Source: Cheilinus undulatus (Eukaryota; Chordata; Actinopteri; Labriformes; Labridae). From it: DNA of 64,000 nt. The stretch is taken from positions 25,068,769 through 25,132,768 of the forward strand of contig NC_054872.1 of NCBI RefSeq assembly GCF_018320785.1. Reading direction: 5' to 3'. A program made the translations under genes and the position numbers. Position 1 is the first letter of the stretch. Each line of letters opens with the position of its first letter. The notes under the pieces are model-generated. The model worked only from the letters and a program-made list of their open reading frames with translations. It did no database searches and was not told where the DNA came from. Below are positions 16,321 to 64,000 of this stretch, one piece after another.

Positions 16321-17049
16321 TCAGTAGTGTGTGGAAGAACCATGCACAGCCACAACAGCCTGGCACCTCCTCCTCATGCTGGTCACCAGTCTGGTCACAC
16401 ACTGCTGTGGGATAGTATCCCATTCTTCAACCAGCATTTGTGGCAAGTCAGCCAATGTGGTTGTGTTGGTCACTCTGGCACGAACAGCACGCCCAAGCTG
16501 ATCCCACAAGTGTTCAATGAGGTTAAGGTCAGGACTACTGGCCGGCCCATACATCCTCTCCACTAACCAAATTCTGGAGGTAGTCTCTGATAAACCCCGC
16601 TCTGTGGGGGGCGAGCGTTGGAGGATGGAGTTTCAGTCCTAGGCTGTGGAGATATGGGATTGCCACTGATTGAAGAATCTCATCTCAATATCTCTCTGCA
16701 TTGATATTGCCTCCAATGATCACAAGCCTTGTTTTTATAGTGAGGGAGATGCCGCCCCACACCAGCATTCTCCGCGTCTTCTCTACACTTTGACCCTACG
16801 ATCCAACTGCTGTAGACAGAATCTGGACTCATCGCTGAATATAACATTCCTCCACATGTTCAGGTTCCAGTTCATGTGTTGCCGACACCAGTGCAAACGG
16901 GCCTGATGGTGAAGGGCAGACATGGCAGGCCTCCTGGCAGCCCTATGAGACCAGAGATTAGCTGCATGCAGTCTGTTCTGGATTGTTTCGGCAGAGAGCC
17001 ATCGGCCATATTGTCCTTCAAGCCTTGACTGCAAAACTGTAGAAGACAA
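16321..17049 (-). pseudogene. Tc1-like transposase remnant
   Basis: Two frames survive. The upstream one (17049 to about 16783) has SRLEGQYGRWLSAETIQNRL and the motif NVIFSDESRF with the first catalytic Asp. The downstream one (16563-16321) has SPDLNLIEHLWDQLGR, containing the third-acidic-residue region, and ends RRRCQAVVAVHGSSTHY. The middle DN motif and the N-terminal helix-turn-helix part are not intact, so this is not a functional transposase. Confidence 0.85.
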
Positions 17050-17302
17050 CCTAGAGCACCTGGGGGTACCAGAAGCTTAAAACAAGAGTCACTAGCAACA
17101 ACAAAATAAGCTGTTTGGCATTGACAGAGAAGATTTGGTAAATTTTTTATAGGTGCAACCCACATACTCAGCTCTGCTGCTCATCCCACAAATGCATGTT
17201 CTTTACAAATGTGGCATCATTTAAAAGGGTAATAAACAGGCTTTCCAACGGTATAAGATTTATTGCCAAGAAGTATTGTTACAACAAAGAAATAATCTAC
17301 CA

Positions 17303-19304: not shown

Positions 19305-20667
19305 ACACAGTGATCTAGATTATTATGCAAATACGATTCCAATTAAACAAAAATGGGACTTTTAGTTTTCATTTAAAGTTTTCAATTGTGCTATTTCTCC
19401 TGTCAGTTTACATCATTGACAACAACCTCAGACAGGTTTGGTCATTAGTTGGCCAGGTGAGCCTGATAGAAGGGAAAACTACGTAAAGAGGTTGTTCCAC
19501 ATTATTAAGCAAGCCACGGGTTTCATACAATATGAGGAAAAAGATCTTTCTGCAGCTGTAAAGTGAAATAGTGAAGTATATTGCAAAAGGTATGAAAACA
19601 CTGAATATTTCATGAAAAAATGAAGAGAGATCATTGTAGTGTGAAAAGATTTGTGATTCAGAGCACAGATGGATTCGTTCAGATAAAGGAGTATTGAGGA
19701 AAGTTTCTGTAAGGCACATTCATTGTATAAAGAGAGCAGCTGTTAAAAAAAATCCCGTGATGAGTAGCAAACAGGTATTTGTAGCTGCTGGTGCCACTGG
19801 AACCCAAAAACCTCTTGATAGATGATCCTCCAGAGGCTTGCTGATGAGTGTAAAGTTGTATTTCAGCCACCCTTAACCAGTGCCCACAGCGAGAAACAAC
19901 TGCAGTGGGCTCAGAAATAAAAATACTAATTTTCAAACAGTTTTATTCACTGATGAATGCCGTGCTACTCTGGATGGTCTGGCTGGATGAAGTTCTGGAG
20001 GGTTGGTGGATGGCCAACATGTCCCAACAAGGCTGCAACATCAGCAAGGAGGTGGTGGAGTGATGTTTTGGGCTGGAATCATAGGAAGTGAGTTGGAAGG
20101 CCCCTTTAAGGTGCCTGAAGGCATCAAGATGACCTCAGCAAAACATGTGGAGTTCCTAACTGCCTATTTCCTGCCATGGTATAAAAAGAAGAATTGTGCT
20201 TTATGGAGTAAAATCATTTTCATGCAAGACAACGCACCATCCCATGCTGCAAATCACACCACTGAGGCCTTGGCTGCTATGGGCATAAAGGGGGAAAAAA
20301 ATCCCCTGACTTCAGCTGTGTTGAGAACCTGTGGAGCATCCTTAAAAGGAAGCTCTATGAGGGTGGATGGCAGTTTACCTCAAAACAGCAGCTCTGGGAG
20401 GCAATTTTGGCATCCTCAAAAGAAATCCAATCAGAAGCTATACATGGACTTAGAAGTTCAAAGTTTGAGAGAGCTGTTAAGCTGACATCAAAAAAGGGCT
20501 CCTATTTTAATATGTGACCTGATCTGCAAAGATGTTTTTGATTGAAATAGCTTTGATTTGAGAAATATTGTCTTAGAATGCAACAATTAACAGATTTCTG
20601 TTTTCAATCCTTTAGAAACCATTATGTGTTTTGAAACACTGTTTTGCATGATAGTTTGGAGCACTGC
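19305..20667 (+). mobile_element. Second Tc1/mariner-like element, degraded
   Basis: The left end CACAGTGATCTAGATTATTA (about 19306) and the right end near GTTTGGAGCACTGC (to about 20667) are inverted relatives, and both carry a TATGCAAA/TTTGCAT core. The length of about 1.36 kb fits a Tc1-like element, and a damaged transposase lies inside. Confidence 0.75.
19870..20510 (+). pseudogene. Tc1-like DDE transposase remnant
   Basis: Catalytic landmarks are visible: FTDECRATLDG (first Asp, about 19950), GGGGVMFWAGI, and IIFMQDNAPSHAANHT (second Asp, about 20230). A one-frame shift near 20300 leads into SPDFSCVENLWSILKRKLYE. The frameshift and a missing N-terminus make it inactive. Confidence 0.85.
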
Positions 20668-29600: not shown

Positions 29601-32600
29601 TTGGCCATTGAGCATTGACGGGTCTGTCTGCTTTGTGCATTTGTTTCCTTCCATTAGTGTAGGATCAATGAATCAATAAGACGCTCAGAAGAGGAGGAAT
29701 TTTCACAAATACGTTATTTTCTCAATTTTAGGAGTTTGTTTACCTTCTTATTAGATATGAAAATGCAATGCCTTTTGATCAAAAAAACCTTAAGATGTCA
29801 CTTCTTAGATTAAATGTAAATGTTAAATATTAATGTAGGAATAAAAAAAAAAAGTCAGAGCAGCAGCCTGTGTCCAACTCTACTGATAGAAAAAGAATAT
29901 AAACCTTCAGCCAGGATCTGAATTCAGGTTTTTTACACATCTTAAAGGTTCCATGTCTTTGAGTTGCCACTAGATGGCAGAATTGAATTTGGAAAAGGAG
30001 CTGGCCAGCTGACAACTGTGTGTCTCAGTAGACTTCATGCACCATAGAAACCAAACCAGACAGGAAATATAACCAGTCTAGATGGTGCAGATTTCACACT
30101 TTCATTTTACACAAACCACAGGGTTGACATTAAACTATAAAAATAAAATATTCTTTAACCAATTTGCTGTGGGATGTTCTAAAACCATCTTATTAAATGC
30201 ATCAAAACTGAATCCAACTCTGAGTTAACATGAAGCATTTGAGCACAAAAGGGTTCCTGTCTGGTTACATAATGCAGGTAAAGAACGGCCCCTCAGTCCT
30301 CATTAGCCAGCATGCACACCAAGGCGACAAGCCTCGGAAACTGTGCGTCCCCCACACGTCCTCACCTGCTCTGAATGGAGTGGCGGACTGAGCCTGGGTT
30401 TCCTGAGAACACACATTCCTATTTGGCGAGGTGAGAGAGACATCTGAAAGGTGTGTGGGCTGCAGGCTGCTCAGCGCCTGGCATGGCGGCAGTGACAGCG
30501 TGCTGAAACTGTCCAGATGGAAGTGATGGAATGGCACCGTGTGCCAGCGAGGCCCAGTCTCCGCCAACGGCACTAAAACAGTTTCCGTTGTGACACAACT
30601 AATCCCCATCACAGTGCCAGAGAGAGAGCCGAGCCCAGTCTGCCTCTTACCAGCAGCCGCCCGCATCCAGGCAGAGTGCCAGATGCTGCCAGTAAAGGAT
30701 GTGAACAGCAAGTTTCTCTGAGGGCCCTGAAATTACTCACTTTAGGTGGTCTCTAACTACTCTCGAAATTTTTCTTTACAATTGCTTTGAGCTAATCCTG
30801 GCTTTTCAATGCACAAATGAAACTTCCAATGAGACACAGACTAATGTGTAACCTCTAAAGGAGAGTTCCCAGCACACCTTGCTCAGGATGTAGATGGCAT
30901 CTCCACGTTTGAAGGACAACTCATCAGGCTGGTCTCCTACACAGTCCCACAAACCCTGGTAGTAGTTGGCATAATCTGTGCTCTTATCAACTGGAGAAAC
31001 AGAGAAAAAGGAGACAATAACAGATGAAGAGTTAAGAGAAATGTCAATTACAACACAGTGCACCAACTGTGAGTGTGGAGCCACACCAACAGGAGGCAGT
31101 GCAGAGCCTGGAAAAGTGGAGGCAGACAGGAGCTGGGAGCATTTACTCTATATTAAAGCAAGCAGGGTGTTAGGTATGAAGTATTTTCCCACCATGTGAT
31201 GCACACTATTTACCCACAAATCCATGCACAACAGAGTTAGAGGAGTAGAAGTGTTAAATGGATCTGAATCAGCACAGAGCTTTAATTTAGCTTTATCTAT
31301 CACCATCAATCTTTAAAGCTTTTAAATGCTTTTATTAGGAAACCAGAGAGAGAGTGGAGAAATACATGAGTGAAAGGAGCTGAGTGTTTGGTTCAGTCCC
31401 ACTTCTGACTTCTATCTCTACTCCTTAATTTTTAAAGTCCCCTTCCAACAAACCTTCAAATCATAAAGAACTCCACCACAACCAATATTTAACATGATTC
31501 AGGAAAACTAATCTGCAGTATCAGCATGGGTCACTGTTTGAGAAACATTTAAAAACCCTGTGAGGGGACAGGAATCATATGTGGTCACTTTGGTAGACTT
31601 CCTTTGTGGTTTCCCCCCAACTCTCCATGATACAGCAGAACCAGAATGATTTTTCTCAGCCAATCAGTGGAGACCAGCAAACGTCAAAGAAAGTGACATC
31701 ACAGTATCTGATCAGTTAACAGTTAACAATGGCTCAGAGCGTCTCAAACTTTCTGTTTCCTCCAGAACTCACACATAGTTTCTCATCTCTTTTTGGCCAA
31801 CGTCTTTACTAACCATGATTAGTTAATTCATTATAATATTCATAATAAAGGTAAATAGTAGTGCTAAATGCCATGATAGGTTTTGTTTGCATAGGATTTC
31901 TAACAGTTACTGTAATTTTAGTGAAAACTGGAGGAACCATATTTGGACACAGGCCTGTTTAAGGGTGTAAAATATTGTCTATATTAAGACCTATGGCAAA
32001 TTTATCTAGCAGCCACAATAAGGGTGTTTTCTTGACAATCAACTCATTAAATATAAGATAACAGTACTCTATAGTGTAGTTAGAGGTCACCATTGGTTTG
32101 TTAAAAAGATATAGAGTGATCCAGTGGTAAATTTTACTCATTTATAGAAATTTTCAAGGAATTATTATTCAAATAGGAGTGGTTTTTTGTCATTTTAGAA
32201 CATTTTAACAGTTTTATTATACTTGTGTGGTTTATATAAGTTTTTTATTACAACACGAGACTTATTTCTGCTTAATTTCATTTAGACATTCAGTATTTGT
32301 GTTTTATTAATTATAAGGAAAAGTCAGCGGTGTACATAGTGAAAATATGTTATTTGAGCCTGTTTTACAGTATAACTGCTTTATTAAACTTAAATGGCAT
32401 AAATCCCTTTCTTTAATTTACATTATGAGTCTTGTCCCTGCTAAAATTCACGTAGTAATTCAATATTTTTGATATTTTTATGTTTCTTGTTGGAATTATA
32501 AGATAAAACAGGTGGTACTACCATTACTCAAGTCTACCCTCCAAAAGGGGGCACTGGCAAAAGACAACCTCATCAACTTTGATGTCTCTGTTGACCTTTC

Positions 32601-49088: not shown

Positions 49089-50523
49089 TTAATAGGTCAA
49101 GTTCTGCAGGTCGATTGTTGTGAGAGTTTCTGAGAAAAGGTCAAAAGTCTCGGATGATAAAGTCAGAGGACTCTGCGTGGATTCAGACAAACTGGGTGAG
49201 AAAGAAGCAGAGGGGGAGAAAACGTGAAAATCCTGAAAGCAGACGTCCAGGCCCGTGGAATGGCCATCATTGTCCCGGTCTATTGTCGGCGCGTAAAGTG
49301 GAGCAGTAGGAGCCGCGATGGGAACATGTTTCAGATTTTTCTCATCGTTGTCCAGAGCCGGGCTCTGATTCTCTCCATTGTGCTGCTGGAAAAACCTCTC
49401 CTCCTTCCCTGCCCGCTCGAAAAAGTCCTCCTCCGCTGCGTCGTCGTCTTCGTCGTCCTCCAGGCCCACGTACTTGCCCTCGCTGTCCCTGTTCTCCTTA
49501 CTGTGCGTCTGCCTCTTGTGCTTCATCCTCCGGTTCTGGAACCAAACCTTCACCTGCCTCTCGCTTAAATCCAGCAAAGCAGCTATTTCCACGCGCCTTG
49601 GTCTGCACAGATATTTGTTGAAGTGGAACTCCTTCTCCAGCTCCAGGAGTTGGGTGTTGGTGTACGCGGTCCTCAGCCTCCGGGATGCCCCTCCACCGCC
49701 AACAGCACCCTCAGGAGCCTCTGGTGAACCTAAAAACACAAACCAAACATGAGATTTTAATCACGTGCTTTCAGAGGAAAGCGTCTCCATTGTATTGGTT
49801 TGTTTATGTGGTGAAAGTTGTGGCGAGCAACAAGCGCAGGAAGATTTATGAGCCCCGGCATGATATGATGGGTCTGCGTGGACAGGACAGCACGGAGGGT
49901 GAAGATTAATGCACGTGCCAGTTGCTGGTCCGTGTAAGAATCATTTATCACTCTCCATTACTGTCAAACATTTACACTCTTACACTGCATCACAAGTCAG
50001 TGCGTTACTTGATGAGATTAGGCGTGTTTAAATCAAATATCCTGTCCCTGACTGAGGGGGACGCCCACGCCGCACAAGGCCCGGGATGCAGCTCTTTCCC
50101 TGCAGACAATGAGGAAGCTTCAAACATGGAGGGTATTAATCATCATGTCTTGCCTTGGGGGGAGAAGTGAGGAGGTGAAGAGTCAGTCGTAGTTGCAGAA
50201 ATCTGGTTCCTCCTGATGCTTTTCTTCTCCTTCATCCACGGGTACTCCGGGGGTAAAGATGCAGCCTGCGCCGGGCTGCTGTAGCCTTTCACGGCCGCCT
50301 GCTGCTTTGTGGAGCGGCTGTGGCGTGGGTGGGCGCCCGGGTTCAGGCCGGGGATGCTCTGCTCAAAAGGAGGAGGAATCAGTGTGGAGTGTGAAAGCGC
50401 CGGGCTCTTGATTGATGAACTTTGAAATGCATCACCGACAGGGTTAGGGAGAGATGTCAGGCACTCAGCGAGCGACGGCTGGCTGTTGATGAAACCACTT
50501 TCTCGCCCAAATCCGTAATTCAT
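49089..50523 (-). CDS. hoxa2b: hoxa2b, homeodomain transcription factor (HoxAb cluster)
   Basis: Two exons, 50523-50154 and 49729-49089 (TAA at 49089-49091), encode 336 aa; human HOXA2 has 376. The N-terminus [20 protein letters not shown] is the Hox2 signature. The Pbx-binding hexapeptide is [10 protein letters not shown] (YPWM 94-97). The homeodomain spans 139-198 ([19 protein letters not shown], then [31 protein letters not shown]) with N51 and the DNA-contact residues intact. The C-terminus [12 protein letters not shown] matches the family. An acidic block ([12 protein letters not shown]) follows the homeodomain. Hoxa2 is the selector of second pharyngeal arch identity and a hindbrain patterning gene. 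Intron oddity: phase demands a CAAG/GCAAGA donor, a GC-AG intron. Assigned to the b duplicate because it sits directly beside hoxa9b/a10b with no a1 or a3-a7. Confidence 0.96.
49903..49912 (+). promoter_or_regulatory. Candidate Hox/Pbx site AGATTAATGC in hoxa2b intron
   Basis: It fits the WGATNNATNN consensus. Known hoxa2 intronic rhombomere-4 control uses several Hox/Pbx sites plus a Prep/Meis site. The match is short and could be chance. Confidence 0.35.
49961..49966 (+). promoter_or_regulatory. Candidate Prep/Meis site CTGTCA in hoxa2b intron
   Basis: An exact CTGTCA, 48 bases from one Hox/Pbx-like site, within the intron where such a site is expected from other vertebrates. Confidence 0.35.
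50133..50142 (-). promoter_or_regulatory. Candidate Hox/Pbx site TGATTAATAC near the hoxa2b donor
   Basis: On minus it reads TGATTAATAC, fitting TGATNNATNN, and lies just inside the intron (the exon ends at 50154). Confidence 0.4.
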
Positions 50524-53010
50524 CTCCTCCTGGAAGTCTGGAACTCTCAGAGTAAAATCAAATTAATAAACTGTTTGCGTCCATTGAGTCCAAATTTGGA
50601 AATAGTCGTATAGGGAGACCTGTATGCCATAAACTATTGCTTTCATGAGGACATGGTTGGAATTAGACCGTGCTGCTTGTCACATGATTTCATCTGCCCA
50701 ATGACAATTTGAGCTTTTTTTATCAAAAGGAGCCACTGTCCCCTGTGATTGATCGAGAAAGTCAGAGGGGTAACGCCCCGTTCCGGGGGTAGGGGCTGCT
50801 TTATTTACACATTTTGGGGGGTCAGTTTGTTCACTGCTGCCCCCTTTCTGTTTTTGAACATGTATCCAAAAAGCTGCGCCTTCGTGGAGCGCGTCCACGC
50901 GAAGGCAGACTCCCTCTCCTCGCCGGTCTTTACGCACGAGTGTGGGTCGCTGTGCGGGTGCGCGCCTGAGTTGGTGCATGTTCTGTGAGCGTTTATGACC
51001 AGGGTGGCACCCTACAAATCATTTCAGCAGTCACATTTGCGTCTCATAACGACGCCCACAGTCGTTATCAGTGCCAAGGCGTTAATCTTGAGACTTTCTT
51101 TGGAAGGTTTTGCTTGGAGAGGAAGGGCTGCACGAGACAGACATCCAGAAACATGTCCAGCTACCCCTCCCCCAATAAACACACATACACCACTTATGAG
51201 TGAGGGAGAGAGAGGCTTATAAGATTTCAGTGTAAAATTTGGTCATTTATCTCCACTCATCTACAAAATGTCCACAGTGAGGGCAGCTTTTAAAACAGTA
51301 AGCGTCTTAAAACCATATTTTCAATCAGTGCAAGAGTTTAGCAGCTATTTGGCGCCGTTTTACAGTTTACAACTCCATCCTCACTCCACATTCCAATCAG
51401 TTTATCTCGCCTAAAGGGGGTGTAATGCTGAGCTAAGTCATCTTCCATACACTCCACAATTATTGTCTCAAACATGGCGGAGAGGGGAGGATGATTTGCC
51501 ACTGTAGTGTGAAGCGGTAGAAAGGTGGGGATCTGATGGCTGTTTATTGCTCGAGCTCCTAAACAAAGAGCTCTGGTAGCCTGCGCGTGATCAATCTTTC
51601 TCACCAAAAGGTCTGACAGCTCGCTGCCCCTGAGAACACATTTAAACCACCTAACTCTCCCTTAGACCATACACGAGCAGGAAGAGGACGGTCACCCTCT
51701 GGGTAGAGCTGCTGGAGAAGGTTTCTGATGTGAAATGGAGGGATTTTTTTATTTGGAGAAGGGATGAGGCGCGCGGTCATTACGCACGAAGATTTCTTTG
51801 AAAATCTGCTCGTACTGAGTAAGAAATGCATCTAATAGCACGTTCTGGTAGTTTTTCGTTTGCATGAAGGACTGAATTAAATATAGAGGAGCAGAAATGG
51901 CTTGGTTAGAGGGTTAGAAACGAAAGGAGCAGCTTTAACACACGATCAGTTGTTTACTGAGGTGAGTGGGTGTTGGCATTCAGCAGAGGTCCTATTCAAT
52001 CTTAAATCTTTCTGTCAGAAACCAAAAAAGGAGTTTCCCTTAAAGGGTGGGACTTTGATTTAATTCTGCTTTACCCTGTATGCGTAAAATGTTGGATTGC
52101 TTTTGTAGAATTTATATTAATTTATATTTTCATTTGTCAGGATGCTCTTTTAAGCCACGTCCTCGTGCATCTATGAATTATCCACACAGCCCAACTTATA
52201 ACATCAACATTTAATTAAAATAAGTATTTCATTAAAATCTTGTGCTTTTACTCAGTTGTCAAGCACTGCAATAATTTTTTCTAAAAAAAGAATCCAAACT
52301 TGTTCTTTTTTTACTTTGCAAATTAGAAATCGAAATTAAAAATACAAACAAACTGATGAATTATTGCTTCTAATGGTTGTATTTGTATAGCCAGAGGTGG
52401 TTTAAATGCTTAATAGACCACTGATACTTAAAAAGGTACAGAAATAGAGGCTAAACTGTGCGCAGTGGTTGGCTTTTCTTTCTTTTGTTGCTGCCACTTT
52501 TGATCTATATCTGCTGTTTCTGTCCGAAGCTGTGCAGATATAAAAGCCACATTTTTGCTGCTTGTTTTTAATCGGACGCAGACAGATGACGGTGTTTGGA
52601 GGAGCTGTGCGCACGAGCGCTACGATTCCCGTCTGTTCCCGGGCGGCGCGAGACATCTGGGAGGCAAGAGGGCCAAACTGAGACCACAGACGGGCACCAA
52701 TCAAGCCCGGTTTATTTTTTGAGTGTGTTTATTGAAATACATTGTGTGTGTGTAATTCTATTTTAATCAGACCAATAAAATAAAAACCTAAAACCAATGT
52801 GCGTACGTTTATTTTTGTTTGTTTAGAGATGGTAGAGCATTTACACTTCTATTGTAAATGGAAGGATATCAAGTGAAGGCTATTTGTGTTTATTTAAGTG
52901 TTTATCGCGTGTTTTTCTTCTCATCATTAACGCTGTTTTATATCATGTTACTTCATGTTCAGCTGTGGAGAAAATCAGCCAGTAAGCCTCCTGGAAAATA
53001 CATTCACAGC
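50524..53010. other. hoxa2b upstream region
   Basis: No homeobox or other gene is recognised. GAGTGGGTG at about 51964-51972 fits the Krox20 consensus (GNGTGGGNG), as used in hoxa2 r3/r5 control. 52.44-52.72 kb is unique and GC-rich, with ATATCTGC/GCAGATAT half-palindromes. Confidence 0.4.
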
Positions 53011-58457: not shown

Positions 58458-59617
58458 TTAACTGTTTCTCCGCCGGTCCTTGTTTTCTTTCTTCATCTTC
58501 ATCCTGCGGTTCTGAAACCAGATTTTCACCTGTCTCTCGGTCAGATTCAGGAGTCTTGCTATCTCGTATCTACGGTCCCGGGGGAGGTACATGTTAAACA
58601 AAAACTCCTTCTCCAGTTCGAGGATTTGGTGCTTTGTGTAGGGACAGCGTTTTTTTCTGGTGGGCTTTGCGTGCAGCCAGTTGGATGAGGGGTTATCTAG
58701 GAAAAGGTGATGAAGAAAAGCTCTCAGAACAAGATTCAGAATAATACGAGTCAATCAAGCTTTAATCTTAGGGAGTGCATGCTGTTACAGGCAGGACTGG
58801 TCAATTGTAAACAACCATTTTGGTTTATTTCAAATTTGAGGGTCAAAAAAGCATCAGCAAAACCCATGAGTTTCTGTGAATTTCACAGTAGTGTTCGAAT
58901 CAACATTTTGATCGTGCATTCTAAATTTTACAGATTAATGCAATTAACGCTGTTGTTTCTATGTAGAACGTTTTTACGCACAGCTTGACAGTGATTTGCA
59001 GAACATGCCTCCGCATCTGTCGCCATAATAATAAGAAATCCCGTTATCCACATTGAGCTCTAAAATAATCAGACTTTTTTAAAGAAAAGGCCGCATTTCT
59101 TACTTGCATCTGCGTCCCTCTTCTCCTCCGATGACGGGCTCTCCTCCTCCGTAGGTTTAATCGTGGTCTCGCAGGGGATCTCTGCGAGCGATGCTTCGTT
59201 TCCGATGTCAGACAAAAGCGGCGTGTGCGTCTCTAAATTTGTGCACTCGGCACTCCCGATCAGAGGCTCGGGTTTGATCTCATAATGCATGGCTGTCGAT
59301 GGTAATCCCGTCAGACACAGGGACGCGGAGACCGGATCCAACGCCCAGGAGCGCGTAAACATGCCATCGCAGTCTCCGCTGGTGTAAGGGTGATGTATGT
59401 AGGTCGGGGCGGCTGTGTTTGGAGGGTGAGCCGAGATTGGACTCCAAGATCCACCAAAAATAGAAGATTTCGCCTGCAAAGGGCATGACTCCTGTCCGCC
59501 ATATTCGGCGAGCATCGCCTGCTCCACCCCTGCAGCTGATGAGAACCTGGGTGCCATGTCTTCCTGCTCGGAAAGAACAGGCGTGTCAATATAAAAACTC
59601 GTCCCCAGCGTCGACAT
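58458..59617 (-). CDS. hoxa9b: hoxa9b, posterior homeodomain transcription factor
   Basis: Two exons, 59617-59104 and 58696-58458 (TAA at 58458-58460), encode 250 aa (human HOXA9 272). The N-terminus [20 protein letters not shown] is the Hox9 activation-domain start. The exon junction gives [15 protein letters not shown] with the Pbx-contact Trp (178). The homeodomain is 184-243: [20 protein letters not shown], then [18 protein letters not shown], then [13 protein letters not shown]. Two homeodomain residues differ from the usual Hox9 sequence: Ile at position 13 (usually Thr) and Pro at position 27 (usually Thr). Donor GCAA/GTAAGA and acceptor TTTTCCTAG are canonical. Hox9 proteins pattern posterior axis and paired fins with Pbx/Meis partners. 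A CACGTG E-box lies about 155 bases upstream of the start. Confidence 0.96.
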
Positions 59618-60860
59618 TGCACAAAATTAAAGAAAAATAGCGCGTTAAAGTTGAAAGAGGCGGAGATAAAACGAATTCATTGCATATAATGTGCTGCTTT
59701 CCTGCGCCAGCGAGGGGGCTCTATGCGTCCAGTTAGTTGAACCTTGCCCAAGCCTGGATAGGGCGCCCTGAACACGTGACCGTGGGACAGAACAATAAAT
59801 AATAAATCAGCCTGCTGCTCAAGTAAATGGCCACCATTTTCCCCACCATATTTTAATAGCAAATCCCCGCGCTTTTATTGGGGAATTTTACGTTTTATTA
59901 GCAATAAATGTTATGATTTTTTTTGTCGAGACCTCACGTTGGCGCAATCAAACACAGAAGTGATAAAGAGGGGGGGAATACTTTTAAGTCTGCAATTTTC
60001 AAATCAATAATCAACCCCTCAATTAAAATGTATTCATCAAATCCTTCCTGGATTGTTTAACCTTCAACATAAAAACAAAACATAAAAATAACGCAACCTT
60101 TAAAGCTTTTAGGGTGACAAAATCTGGCTCTTCTTGTTCGTGACAGCTAAATAAAACATTGCGCATTTCAATAAGACATGGAGATGTGTTCAAGGTGGAC
60201 AAAATAGTGTGGGATAGTTTCCAGGCCGCACAATGCTGCGTCTGCAGGGTTTAAGGCTTTACTTTGAAGGCAATCTAAAACGGAAAGCAGGGTGAGGTTA
60301 TTTGGGTGCTATATAACAGCCCTTTTATCACGGGCAATTGGGTTGTTTTTCTTCAGGTTACAACATGGCTGTCTAAACTAAATATCACCAATAAAGCCCT
60401 GCCTTTGTGTCCTTTCTCTGGCGCAGGCAGACGCATCCGGCATTTCCTACGGCGAGGCAACTGGCAGACTGCAATGATCATAACCGAGGCCTTGTCTGTC
60501 CTTTTCCTCCTCTGCTGGATATAAACGAGCCGTAATCCTTTCATTTCCAGGCCTGATCTTTTTCCTTATACGCCCCAAACCATCCACAGATGCTGTTAGA
60601 CTGTGTATCAAACGCATGATGAAAACTTCGACTATTTGCATTATCAGTAGCTTCTAAAATATCATTTCACCTTTAACTGAAAACTCGTTTAAAAGAACAA
60701 AATATCTGCATTTTACGCACAACAGCAGAAACACTTCAGCACCTTTTAGGGTCATATTTCGTGAGCATATTTTGTCAGAGCAGTCTGAGACAACTTTTAA
60801 TAAATTTGAGCATTAATGTTTTCAAAGTGATTCACTTTACAAGATGCGATGAGTTTTACT
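59618..60860. other. hoxa9b upstream region
   Basis: Non-coding. On minus there is GGTCACGTGTTC and, further up, CCAATAAAAGCGCGGGG about 250 bases from the start, which could serve as a CCAAT/TATA-like pair. 60.19-60.64 kb is unique and GC-rich, and is a plausible conserved element between hoxa9b and the microRNA. Confidence 0.4.
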
Positions 60861-60933
60861 GAGGTAATCAAGGCAGTTTCGTGTTGTGGGAGAAATATTA
60901 AAGCCCAACAACATGAGACTACCTAAACCACTC
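60861..60933 (-). ncRNA. mir196: miR-196 family precursor hairpin
   Basis: On minus, 60925-60904 reads TAGGTAGTCTCATG then TTGTTGGG. This equals canonical miR-196a except for C instead of U at mature position 9. The opposite arm, CCCACAACACGAAACTGCC followed by TTG, pairs along nearly the whole length (one bulged U, two or three mismatches), and outer pairs GAG/CTC and GGT/ACC extend the stem to 60933/60861. The loop is about 13 bases. The location between hoxa9b and hoxa10b, on the Hox strand, is the ancestral place of mir-196 in HoxA clusters. miR-196 represses Hox8-class and other Hox mRNAs. The seed (positions 2-8) is intact. Position 9 forms a C-A mismatch in the stem where U would pair. 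Confidence 0.92.
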
Positions 60934-61891
60934 AACAGCCCGCTCTCCTCTGCAGAACTATCTACTGAATATACATTTTTTACACCTTAACATGAGTTTG
61001 AAAATATTTACTTTCGTTAAAGGTCTATCTGGAACAGCTCTAAAGTCTTAGAAGGAGTAAAAGAAAATGATTTGACCGGGGTTATTTACGGAAAGTTTGC
61101 GCGCAAAATTCCCAACTTGCAGATATGCCTTATTTAGATATTAAATTATTATTTCTTTGCATGAAAAATATCAAATGTCTATTTTAGTTTTACAAAAAAG
61201 AGGAAAGTTTTCACTTATTAAGAATTTATAGGCAATACCAGCCATGTTGGTGACATTTCTGTCAAGGACAAAAAGAGACCAAGTGCGCACAGCCGCCAGA
61301 CATCCATTACAGGCTTAAACTATGAAGGACATCACCCTCTACTACTGTAATAATATTTACTGTTCACAAAGCGGAGCCGGTCCAAAACACAGAGGCATTA
61401 CTAACAGCATGCACTGCTCCGCTGCCAGCTTCAAGATTTAAACTCTTCCAGTCTGACTCTCTGAATGAAATAAGAAGTCTGCAGTTGCAGGGATGGTTTT
61501 ATTCATTTGACCAGCAAAAATGTGCAAATATTCATCAGACCTCTGTCACATTAAGGCCTAACTGTAACACAAGGATCCCAAGGGTGAGGCCAGCATGCAA
61601 AGTCCAATGATTCCCTCAGGTTGAAAATACAAACATGAACAAGCCTGGAGCTCGGAAACATTGTGGTCACAGTCTGAACATTTCAAACACGACGGATCAA
61701 CGATACAAATGGAGCCATTTATAAATACAACAGATATGAAAACAAGAAAGAGCAACGATCAATAAGTTAGCAGTAGGGTCCTATTTTTCCATGGGCATTC
61801 TCACAGTTGGGTTGTAGGGGGGGATCTGCACAGACGCCCTTGCCATGGATGGAGGAGGGCGCCAAAGGCGCAGACCGACAGACACACAGTC
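60934..61891. other. hoxa10b downstream region / 3' UTR
   Basis: Non-coding. A probable hoxa10b poly(A) signal (AATAAA on minus) is at about 61498-61503, roughly 390 bases past the stop. No repeats were seen. Confidence 0.4.
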
Positions 61892-63813
61892 TCATGAGAA
61901 ACTGAAGTTGCTGGAGAGCTCTCGGATCCTGTTCTCTCGGCTCATTTTTTTCAGTTTCATCCTTCTGTTTTGGAACCAGATTTTGACTTGCCTGTCAGTG
62001 AGGTGCACACTGCGGCTGATCTCCAGGCGACGCTCTCTAGTCAAGTACATGTTGAAGAGGAACTCCTTCTCCAGCTCCAGAGTCTGGTGTTTGGTGTAGG
62101 GGCAGCGCTTCTTTCGGCCACTCTTTGCTGTGAGCCAGTTGGCCGTGCTTTCTATTTTCCCATCTGATGCGACAAAGAAAAGACAGAAAATTGTTAGCAA
62201 CAGGTGTTTGAAAACAAACAAAAAACACAAGTTTGTGAGATATCAATCAATTTAAAAACTAAAATAAAAGATGGGCGCATTAAAAATGTTCTAACTGCAG
62301 CATAAAAATAGTGCAAATAATGTGCTGTTTGAACTGAGACCTGTATACATTCAAAGTATATTAATACTGGTATATCACTGATTTATGGATTCATTAAATA
62401 TTTCACACTATTTTACGCACTGTCACACACCAGCATTTACCACAACCTGCTATTTGGCCTGTTAAACAGCTTTAAGAGCAGCAGCCTGCAGCCAACTGCA
62501 CCTTTATTAAGACATAAAACACAACCTGCACAGTGTGCTCAAATTAGAGCAAAGGCTTTGATGAGAGGACAAGTGTAGGACAAACGGAGCAGGCTGGATA
62601 CTCTCTGTTATTAATGAAGATAAGAGTAAAAATAGTAATATAACTAATTTCCTTTGTGATTTAAAAATACCCCTCGTGCATTCTAATGATCTAAATCTCA
62701 AATAGTTCCTTTAAGATTAAAACCCAGAGGCCTGTTTAACAGCGTAATAAGGCAACTATAGCGGTGTGTTTGTTGTCTGAACAGCTCGTGCATCACAATA
62801 GCTTTGATTCTTGGCTCTGATTGGTCACGTTCAATTTCGTCTCATGTCTTATAAAGCTGTAAATACCCGATAAACGCGCACCTGAGAGTCTCTGACTGTT
62901 GACCTAAATATTTACAGTCTGAAATTCTGAAGCTCCACTCGTGCATTCCTTTATGTTTGGCACTGGAGGGCTCATAAATAATTACAATGATTAATTCTGT
63001 TATTTCTGCTACATATTTTCACATGTCTTCACCTTTGCTGGTTTTCTCCGGACACTCCGCCCTGCAGGTCTCGGCGGGCTCAGGAGAGGAAGAGCTATCT
63101 GAGGAGAGCCGGCTGTCCTCCTCTCCGGCCGGGGCGCAGGGCGCAGGGACAGGCGCCTCCTCGTGGCTCTCCCTTCGCTCCGGCTCTGCAGAGGCAGCCT
63201 GGGAGGGCTGGCTGTCCGAGCGTGCAGGTCTCTGCAGGGTGAAGTGGTTCATGTTTGGCTGGACATCTTGGTACAGCCTTGAGGAGGAGGACGTGTACGT
63301 CTGAGACAGGCGGAAGTAGCCGGGGACCGGCAAGGTGCTCCCGGTAACCGGGCATGATGCGCTGGAGTAGGAAATGTCATCTACCGGTGCTCCTTTAGGA
63401 CATTTGTCTGACTCGTAAAGGCAGTAGGCGCTCTCCTCCTTTATGCTCGGGGAGAAGGAACACTGAGACATATGCTGGCCGCTGCTGGGCTGATCCACCC
63501 GGCACGATCTCGACGTTTCCAGCCACGTTTCCATCCCCTGAACATAGGGAGCAGAGGACGGGATCACGCTCTGGGTGACTGGCTCGTTACTGCGCTTACC
63601 GATCCCCGGAAAACACGAGCCACCGGAGAGTCCATATGAATATTCCGACGCCGGTGGCAGATAGACGCCGTTACTTTGGTAATATGAACCAGTGTCGGTT
63701 CTCACGTTGATTAAAGAGTCCACAAAAAAGGAATTTCCAGCCTGGTTGTTCGGGCATGTCATCGTTGTGGTGTAATTTGACGGAGGATGAAGATAGCCCT
63801 TTCTGGCTGACAT
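61892..63813 (-). CDS. hoxa10b: hoxa10b, posterior homeodomain transcription factor
   Basis: Two exons, 63813-63033 and 62163-61892 (TGA at 61892-61894), encode 350 aa. The homeodomain (276-335) and tail read [19 protein letters not shown], then [20 protein letters not shown], then [30 protein letters not shown], which is nearly identical to human HOXA10 up to the last residues. ANWLTAKSG just before it carries the Pbx-contact Trp (270). The N-terminus [20 protein letters not shown] and the motifs NSFFVDSLI and [11 protein letters not shown] fit Hox10. A Ser/Glu-rich region ([18 protein letters not shown]) precedes the junction. Splice phase is 1 on both sides (AGCAAAG/GTGAAG; TCGCATCAG/AT). 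Hox10 proteins specify lumbar-level (rib-suppressing) axial identity and fin/limb segments. The two exons are separated by an 869-base intron. Confidence 0.97.
62164..63032. other. hoxa10b: hoxa10b intron
   Basis: A canonical GT-AG intron. It contains TTATAAAGCTGTAAATACC and TTGATTCTTGGCTCTGATTG (62.80-62.87 kb), unique AT-rich sequence that could be regulatory. No nested gene is seen. Confidence 0.5.
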
Positions 63814-64000
63814 TTCTTGTGCAAAACATTGCTGAATAATTACTGATACTCACGCTTCTCACTGTAGCCTGCAGCCAATTAAAACAGCAGGCGACCAAAG
63901 ACTCCTCCCAGTCCGAGCAAGCAGCTCCTCTGTGTCAGAGATTTAGTTTAAGGCTAAAGTAAAGAAAGGACTGTTTGGAGGGGAGCATGATAGAGCTTTA
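63814..64000. other. hoxa10b 5' flank to window end
   Basis: Non-coding. On minus, TTTAATTGGCTGCAGGC lies about 70 bases upstream of the start. hoxa11b and hoxa13b would be expected further right, outside the window. Confidence 0.4.

Follow-up and report, generated by a model that had tools for sequence, protein, structure and literature searches.

It has been reported that miR-196 binds mouse and human Hoxb8 with extensive complementarity and that this leads to degradation by cleavage (PMC3394115), and that pairing at guide positions 9-12 sets the tolerance of slicing to 3' mismatches, miR-196a being among the guides tested (PMC11100590); statements made here from papers cited by PMC number refer to excerpts of those papers. 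In fish, miR-196 forms obtained by sequencing from zebrafish include G11 and U11 members (PMC2684549), the U11 form has been used as miR-196d in mandarin fish (PMC6887715), and mir196c is inferred to be absent from the percomorph ancestor (PMC5168715). In medaka, mir196-Ab was not found and might be lost, which suggests that the HoxAb copy is dispensable; mir196-Ba was likewise not found, so that dispensability would not be special to HoxAb (excerpted text of PMC2080641).

The locus described here is mir-196 of the Cheilinus undulatus HoxAb cluster. It has the same seed, length, hairpin and Hox9-Hox10 position as canonical miR-196a, represented by the HoxAa and HoxCa copies of the same genome, but it carries C rather than U at position 9 and differs at several 3p-arm bases. 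The zebrafish U11 and G11 forms, as given in the excerpts, are of the same family with one central substitution each, at position 11 and not at 9. Fish miR-196b (A13, the HoxBa copy here) also has an intact seed and one central departure, but at position 13 and in a different cluster.

Within the window, that is, the whole stretch of 64,000 nucleotides that was analyzed, the mir-196 hairpin is the sole Rfam match at the gathering threshold (RF00256, minus strand, 70.8 bits against a cut-off of 55.4, E 1.3e-14; Table 1). The mature arm has the 5' end UAGGUAGU and the family seed, and it differs from the canonical mature sequence UAGGUAGUUUCAUGUUGUUGGG only at position 9, where U is replaced by C (C9). 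When up to three mismatches were allowed, the mature pattern occurred once in the window, compared with a mean of 0.01 in 100 shuffles (1/100 reaching 1). Re-reading of the sequence showed that the coordinates, minus strand, letters and C at position 9 in the first-pass annotation were correct, and its assignment to miR-196 by arm sequence, stem and position between hoxa9b and hoxa10b is borne out by the Rfam score, the fold and the flanking Hox frames. It had also read the loss of one U-A stem pair, and C9 indeed lies opposite an A of the 3p arm, a mismatch marked as a non-standard pair in the Rfam alignment; two further mismatches between the arms, A12.C and U19.C, were absent from that annotation.

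Table 1. Features of the window and mir-196 copies of the genome (window positions unless a contig is named; cluster names follow homeobox order).
Feature	Location	Strand	Basis or remark
Source window, 64,000 nt	Cheilinus undulatus, GCF_018320785.1, NC_054872.1:25,068,769-25,132,768	forward	
mir-196 precursor hairpin, HoxAb cluster	60861..60934	-	full-length match (model 1-77) to Rfam RF00256, 70.8 bits
Mature 5p arm UAGGUAGUCUCAUGUUGUUGGG	60904..60925	-	ends set by homology alone
Mature position 9, C in place of U	60917	-	sequence reading
3p arm CCCACAACACGAAACUGCCU	60871..60890	-	its A at 60878 opposite mature position 9
hoxa9b homeodomain exon, open frame	58458..58754	-	Pfam Homeodomain, 80.7 bits
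hoxa9b first exon, open frame	59069..59626	-	Pfam Hox9_act, 170 bits
hoxa10b homeodomain exon, open frame	61892..62242	-	Pfam Homeodomain, 76.5 bits; paralogue number presumed from position and sequence
Probable hoxa10b first exon, open frame	63019..63849	-	no Pfam match; name presumed from position
hoxa2b, two exons	49089..50562	-	homeodomain, 80.6 bits; first-exon frame without Pfam match
mir-196 copy	contig C11 (HoxCa)		83.4 bits; canonical mature
mir-196 copy	contig C16 (HoxAa)		73 bits; canonical mature
mir-196 copy	contig C8 (HoxAb, window)		70.8 bits; C9
mir-196 copy	contig C21 (HoxBa)		67.8 bits; A13

Along the direction of transcription, the order on the same strand is hoxa10b, mir-196, hoxa9b and then hoxa2b as the next Hox gene, which places mir-196 between Hox9 and Hox10, the location typical of the family. 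We presume the number 10 of hoxa10b from its position and sequence, and the paralogue number of hoxa2b from the HoxAb gene set. Elsewhere in the window, an open frame at 30806-31147 (minus strand) matched SH3 weakly, at 21.6 bits, slightly short of the cut-off of 22.9, and is probably SKAP2, a neighbor of HoxA clusters. Frames at 16321-17180 (minus strand) and 19991-20485 (plus strand) resembled, by eye, pieces of Tc1/mariner-type transposases.

Folding, which the first-pass annotation had proposed as a check, indicated that the stem remains stable with C9, at a cost of 3.7 kcal/mol. The 74-base hairpin, with the mature sequence on its 5p arm and a paired basal stem on the sense strand, gave -26.1 kcal/mol (z -4.61), and none of 200 shuffles was equally stable; a 94-base version gave -30.5 kcal/mol (z -3.43; 1/200 shuffles equally stable). 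Placing U at position 9 of a 75-base version lowered the energy from -27.4 to -31.1 kcal/mol, and the same loss of 3.7 kcal/mol for C rather than U was found in each of the four genomic hairpins. The HoxAb sense z is the least extreme of the four loci, the others being -5.29 (HoxAa), -6.04 (HoxBa) and -7.04 (HoxCa).

The host genome (a single assembly of 1.17 Gb in 46 contigs), when searched with the Rfam model, gave at least 13 matches with four above the mir-196 cut-off, 59 of 212,393 first-look candidates having been scored, which leaves room for a very divergent fifth copy. Positions 1-8 are identical in all four copies, in agreement with the earlier statement that C9 leaves the seed intact, and the HoxAa, HoxCa and HoxBa copies have U at position 9. 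In addition, a search with the hoxa9b homeodomain (E up to 1e-12; 150 of 188 candidates scored) gave at least 54 matches genome-wide. From the order of homeoboxes we infer that C8 carries HoxAb, C16 HoxAa, C11 HoxCa, C21 HoxBa, C15 HoxDa, C6 HoxDb and C20 HoxBb; among the clusters, sequence was read directly for the window and for parts of C11, C16, C20 and C21. Single matches outside the named clusters lie on C7, C12, C14, C18 and C19, one on each. A HoxAb gene set of a2, a9, a10, a11 and a13, named from order, fits the five homeobox matches on C8, with ten on C16, the fuller HoxA cluster. No eighth cluster (HoxCb) was seen among the hoxa9b-homeodomain matches, and seven clusters without HoxCb fit the set given for neoteleosts and percomorphs in the excerpts of PMC2080641 and PMC5168715. 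The latter also assigns mir196b to hoxba, in agreement with the A13 copy found here.

Within two mismatches, the mature pattern was found at 22 places in the genome and a backward control pattern at 39. Since the control gives this number, the 18 two-mismatch places are at chance level and were set aside as miR-196 loci, the four Rfam loci being kept; one of them, found 570 bases past the stop of hoxb8a, was retained as a target site on account of that position. At C8:44061505-44061526 (L035), another of these 18 chance-level places, we observed 22 bases complementary, in a minus-strand transcript, to canonical miR-196a when two seed G-U pairs are allowed; there was no Rfam match in 10 kb around this place and no recognizable gene among the open frames. 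The mature pattern had no matches in genome-contig and viral-contig collections, both of which lack vertebrate relatives, and the C9 mature letters, in four spellings, were absent from PMC full text, a scope outside which supplements and most subscription papers fall.

Hox-linked miR-196 had been described in the first-pass annotation as usually almost invariant, which does not describe fish well: two of the four copies of C. undulatus depart from the canonical mature sequence, and zebrafish G11 and U11 forms are in print (PMC2684549). The fish departures fall at positions 9, 11, 11 and 13, all four within positions 9-13 and none in the seed; for these four cases, which are not a random sample, p is about 0.003 if departures are uniform over 22 positions, and 0.012, with the same reservation about sampling, when positions 2-8 are left out. 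The seed is thus frozen and the guide center variable, and C9 is one more case, an ordinary between-copy difference in fish. We take the zebrafish G11 form to be miR-196c, and the U11 form (196d) may, by elimination, be the HoxAb copy. The HoxAb 3p arm of C. undulatus shares 17 letters, CCCACAACACGAAACUG, with a miR-196d antagomir of crucian carp (PMC9912656); trout 196a-2-3p has 14 of these 17, ACAACACGAAACUG (PMC10376541), and the 3p core is therefore not unique to 196d as far as the excerpts go. The antagomir, as excerpted, consists of mir-196 3p-arm letters and does not complement the U11 5p form named miR-196d elsewhere; either it was aimed at an antisense product or its strand was mistaken.

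To what extent C9 bears on targeting depends on the kind of site. Seed-type sites should be indifferent to the base at position 9. The supplementary region of a guide spans about positions 13-16, and since position 9 lies outside it, the initial suggestion that C9 affects 3' supplementary targeting is unlikely to hold. At sites paired right through the center, hoxb8a among them, an effect of C9 is plausible on modeled pairing. The hoxb8a site on C21, TCCAACAACATGAAACTGCCTA, has A opposite position 9 and has thus not been altered to fit C9. Predicted duplex energies at this site are -35.2 kcal/mol for the canonical guide, -33.0 for U11, -31.5 for C9, -31.4 for G11 and -30.8 for A13, so that the loss relative to canonical is 3.7 kcal/mol for C9 and 4.4 for the HoxBa A13 copy. 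The extended 3' site of hoxc8a, TCCCCAACAACTAAAACTGCCTAT (C11, L066:1126-1149), also has A opposite position 9; here A13 is predicted to pair best (-28.0 kcal/mol; canonical -26.6, C9 -24.7), a hint of copy-specific target preference. Furthermore, we collected as seed-like sites every CT[AG]CCT, apart from the first 20 bases, in seven Hox 3' stretches (six of 2.5 kb and one of 3.2 kb) that were taken without annotation, three of the seven gene names being doubtful. The base opposite position 9 at the 18 sites was A in 8, T in 5, C in 4 and G in 1. G, the base expected of a co-evolved target, was thus at neither extended site and at a single seed-like site, a weak one with a wobble in the seed. 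Judged from these seven stretches, there appears to be no co-evolution of targets with C9.

We favor the reading, with a probability of about 0.72, that this is the HoxAb mir-196 of a percomorph-type teleost, with an intact hairpin, competent in its seed, and bearing a tolerated U-to-C transition at guide position 9. The Rfam match and fold, together with four loci in four Hox clusters of which two are canonical, make a tolerated variant most likely. Drosha and Dicer would release the 5p arm of the HoxAb copy as for its paralogues, and Argonaute with the unchanged seed would repress Hox messages; the reading presumes that the copy is expressed and that C9 is fixed. The change would be tolerated because ordinary seed sites leave the guide center unpaired and U9 miR-196 is provided by three other copies. 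At center-paired sites such as hoxb8a, C would face A and slicing by the HoxAb copy would be slower, and this slower, perhaps weaker, slicing of hoxb8a is a probable secondary effect as far as modeled energies can suggest. Against this reading stands the HoxAb sense z, the least extreme of the four loci. Furthermore, the sequence of one assembly would look alike whether C9 is tolerated, selected or a rare allele.

Selection might have produced a division of labor, in which the HoxAb copy keeps seed repression without efficient slicing of hoxb8a and acts at its own time and place on other Hox targets. It would suit this proposal that only center-paired sites are affected, that both the hoxb8a and the extended hoxc8a sites have A opposite position 9, and that central pairing (9-12) matters for slicing of 3'-mismatched sites, miR-196a having been tested (excerpts of PMC11100590). 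The HoxBa copy, however, loses slightly more at hoxb8a (4.4 against 3.7 kcal/mol), so weakened pairing is not special to C9, and with G opposite position 9 in one of 18 seed-like sites and in neither extended site we think such selection unlikely. That a lineage-fixed C9 splits seed repression from hoxb8a slicing in one copy, a single-base subfunctionalization of a duplicated microRNA, appears distinctly unlikely. The three mismatches between the HoxAb arms, the least extreme sense z and the possible loss of mir196-Ab in medaka (excerpted text of PMC2080641) could instead point to a copy decaying towards loss; yet its seed, basal stem and 3p core are intact and its Rfam score exceeds that of the HoxBa copy (70.8 against 67.8 bits), and decay seems improbable. 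The C call comes from one assembly, and an error there, or else an allele that is rare or heterozygous, could in principle explain it; with 46 contigs, those inspected measuring 37 to 60 Mb, this assembly is however near chromosome scale. Consensus errors are rare at unique non-repetitive bases in such assemblies, and we hold this explanation to be very improbable.

The antisense strand bears on one further alternative. At the HoxAb locus (60861-60934, plus strand) it folds at -27.6 kcal/mol with a z of -5.48, more extreme than the sense value of -4.61, whereas at the other three loci the sense z is more extreme than the antisense one (-3.43 for HoxAa, -2.06 for HoxCa and -4.16 for HoxBa). Both C9.A and A12.C become G-U pairs on this strand. 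These features would suit a mirror pair, in which a microRNA is made from the antisense strand as well and C9 is neutral there since C.A turns into a G-U wobble. Mirror pairs have been reported in teleosts, mir-196 not being among those named in the excerpted text (PMC6408482), and the crucian-carp miR-196d antagomir, with 3p-arm letters and not a 5p complement, would be compatible with such a product, but it may simply be the 3p arm (PMC9912656). The antisense upper stem is stable, but an open loop of 7 by 6 bases lies where the basal stem should be. Microprocessor requires a basal stem. In addition, the antisense strand scores 34.6 with the Rfam model, short of the cut-off and between the values at the other three loci (30.6, 36.3 and 39.0). 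Whether position 9 is C or T shifts the antisense stability by a mere 0.1 kcal/mol, so the antisense hairpin is not built by C9. A mirror pair is thus, in our estimation, extremely improbable.

Under the favored reading of a tolerated transition, the HoxAb C9 copy is ordinary in kind and mildly informative. It adds position 9 to the short list of sites that vary among teleost Hox-linked miR-196 copies, and it is consistent with a frozen seed and a guide center that can diverge freely between duplicates, since it comes into use at slicing-type sites alone. The HoxAb C9 copy also provides a natural experiment on the importance, in fish, of central pairing to hoxb8a.
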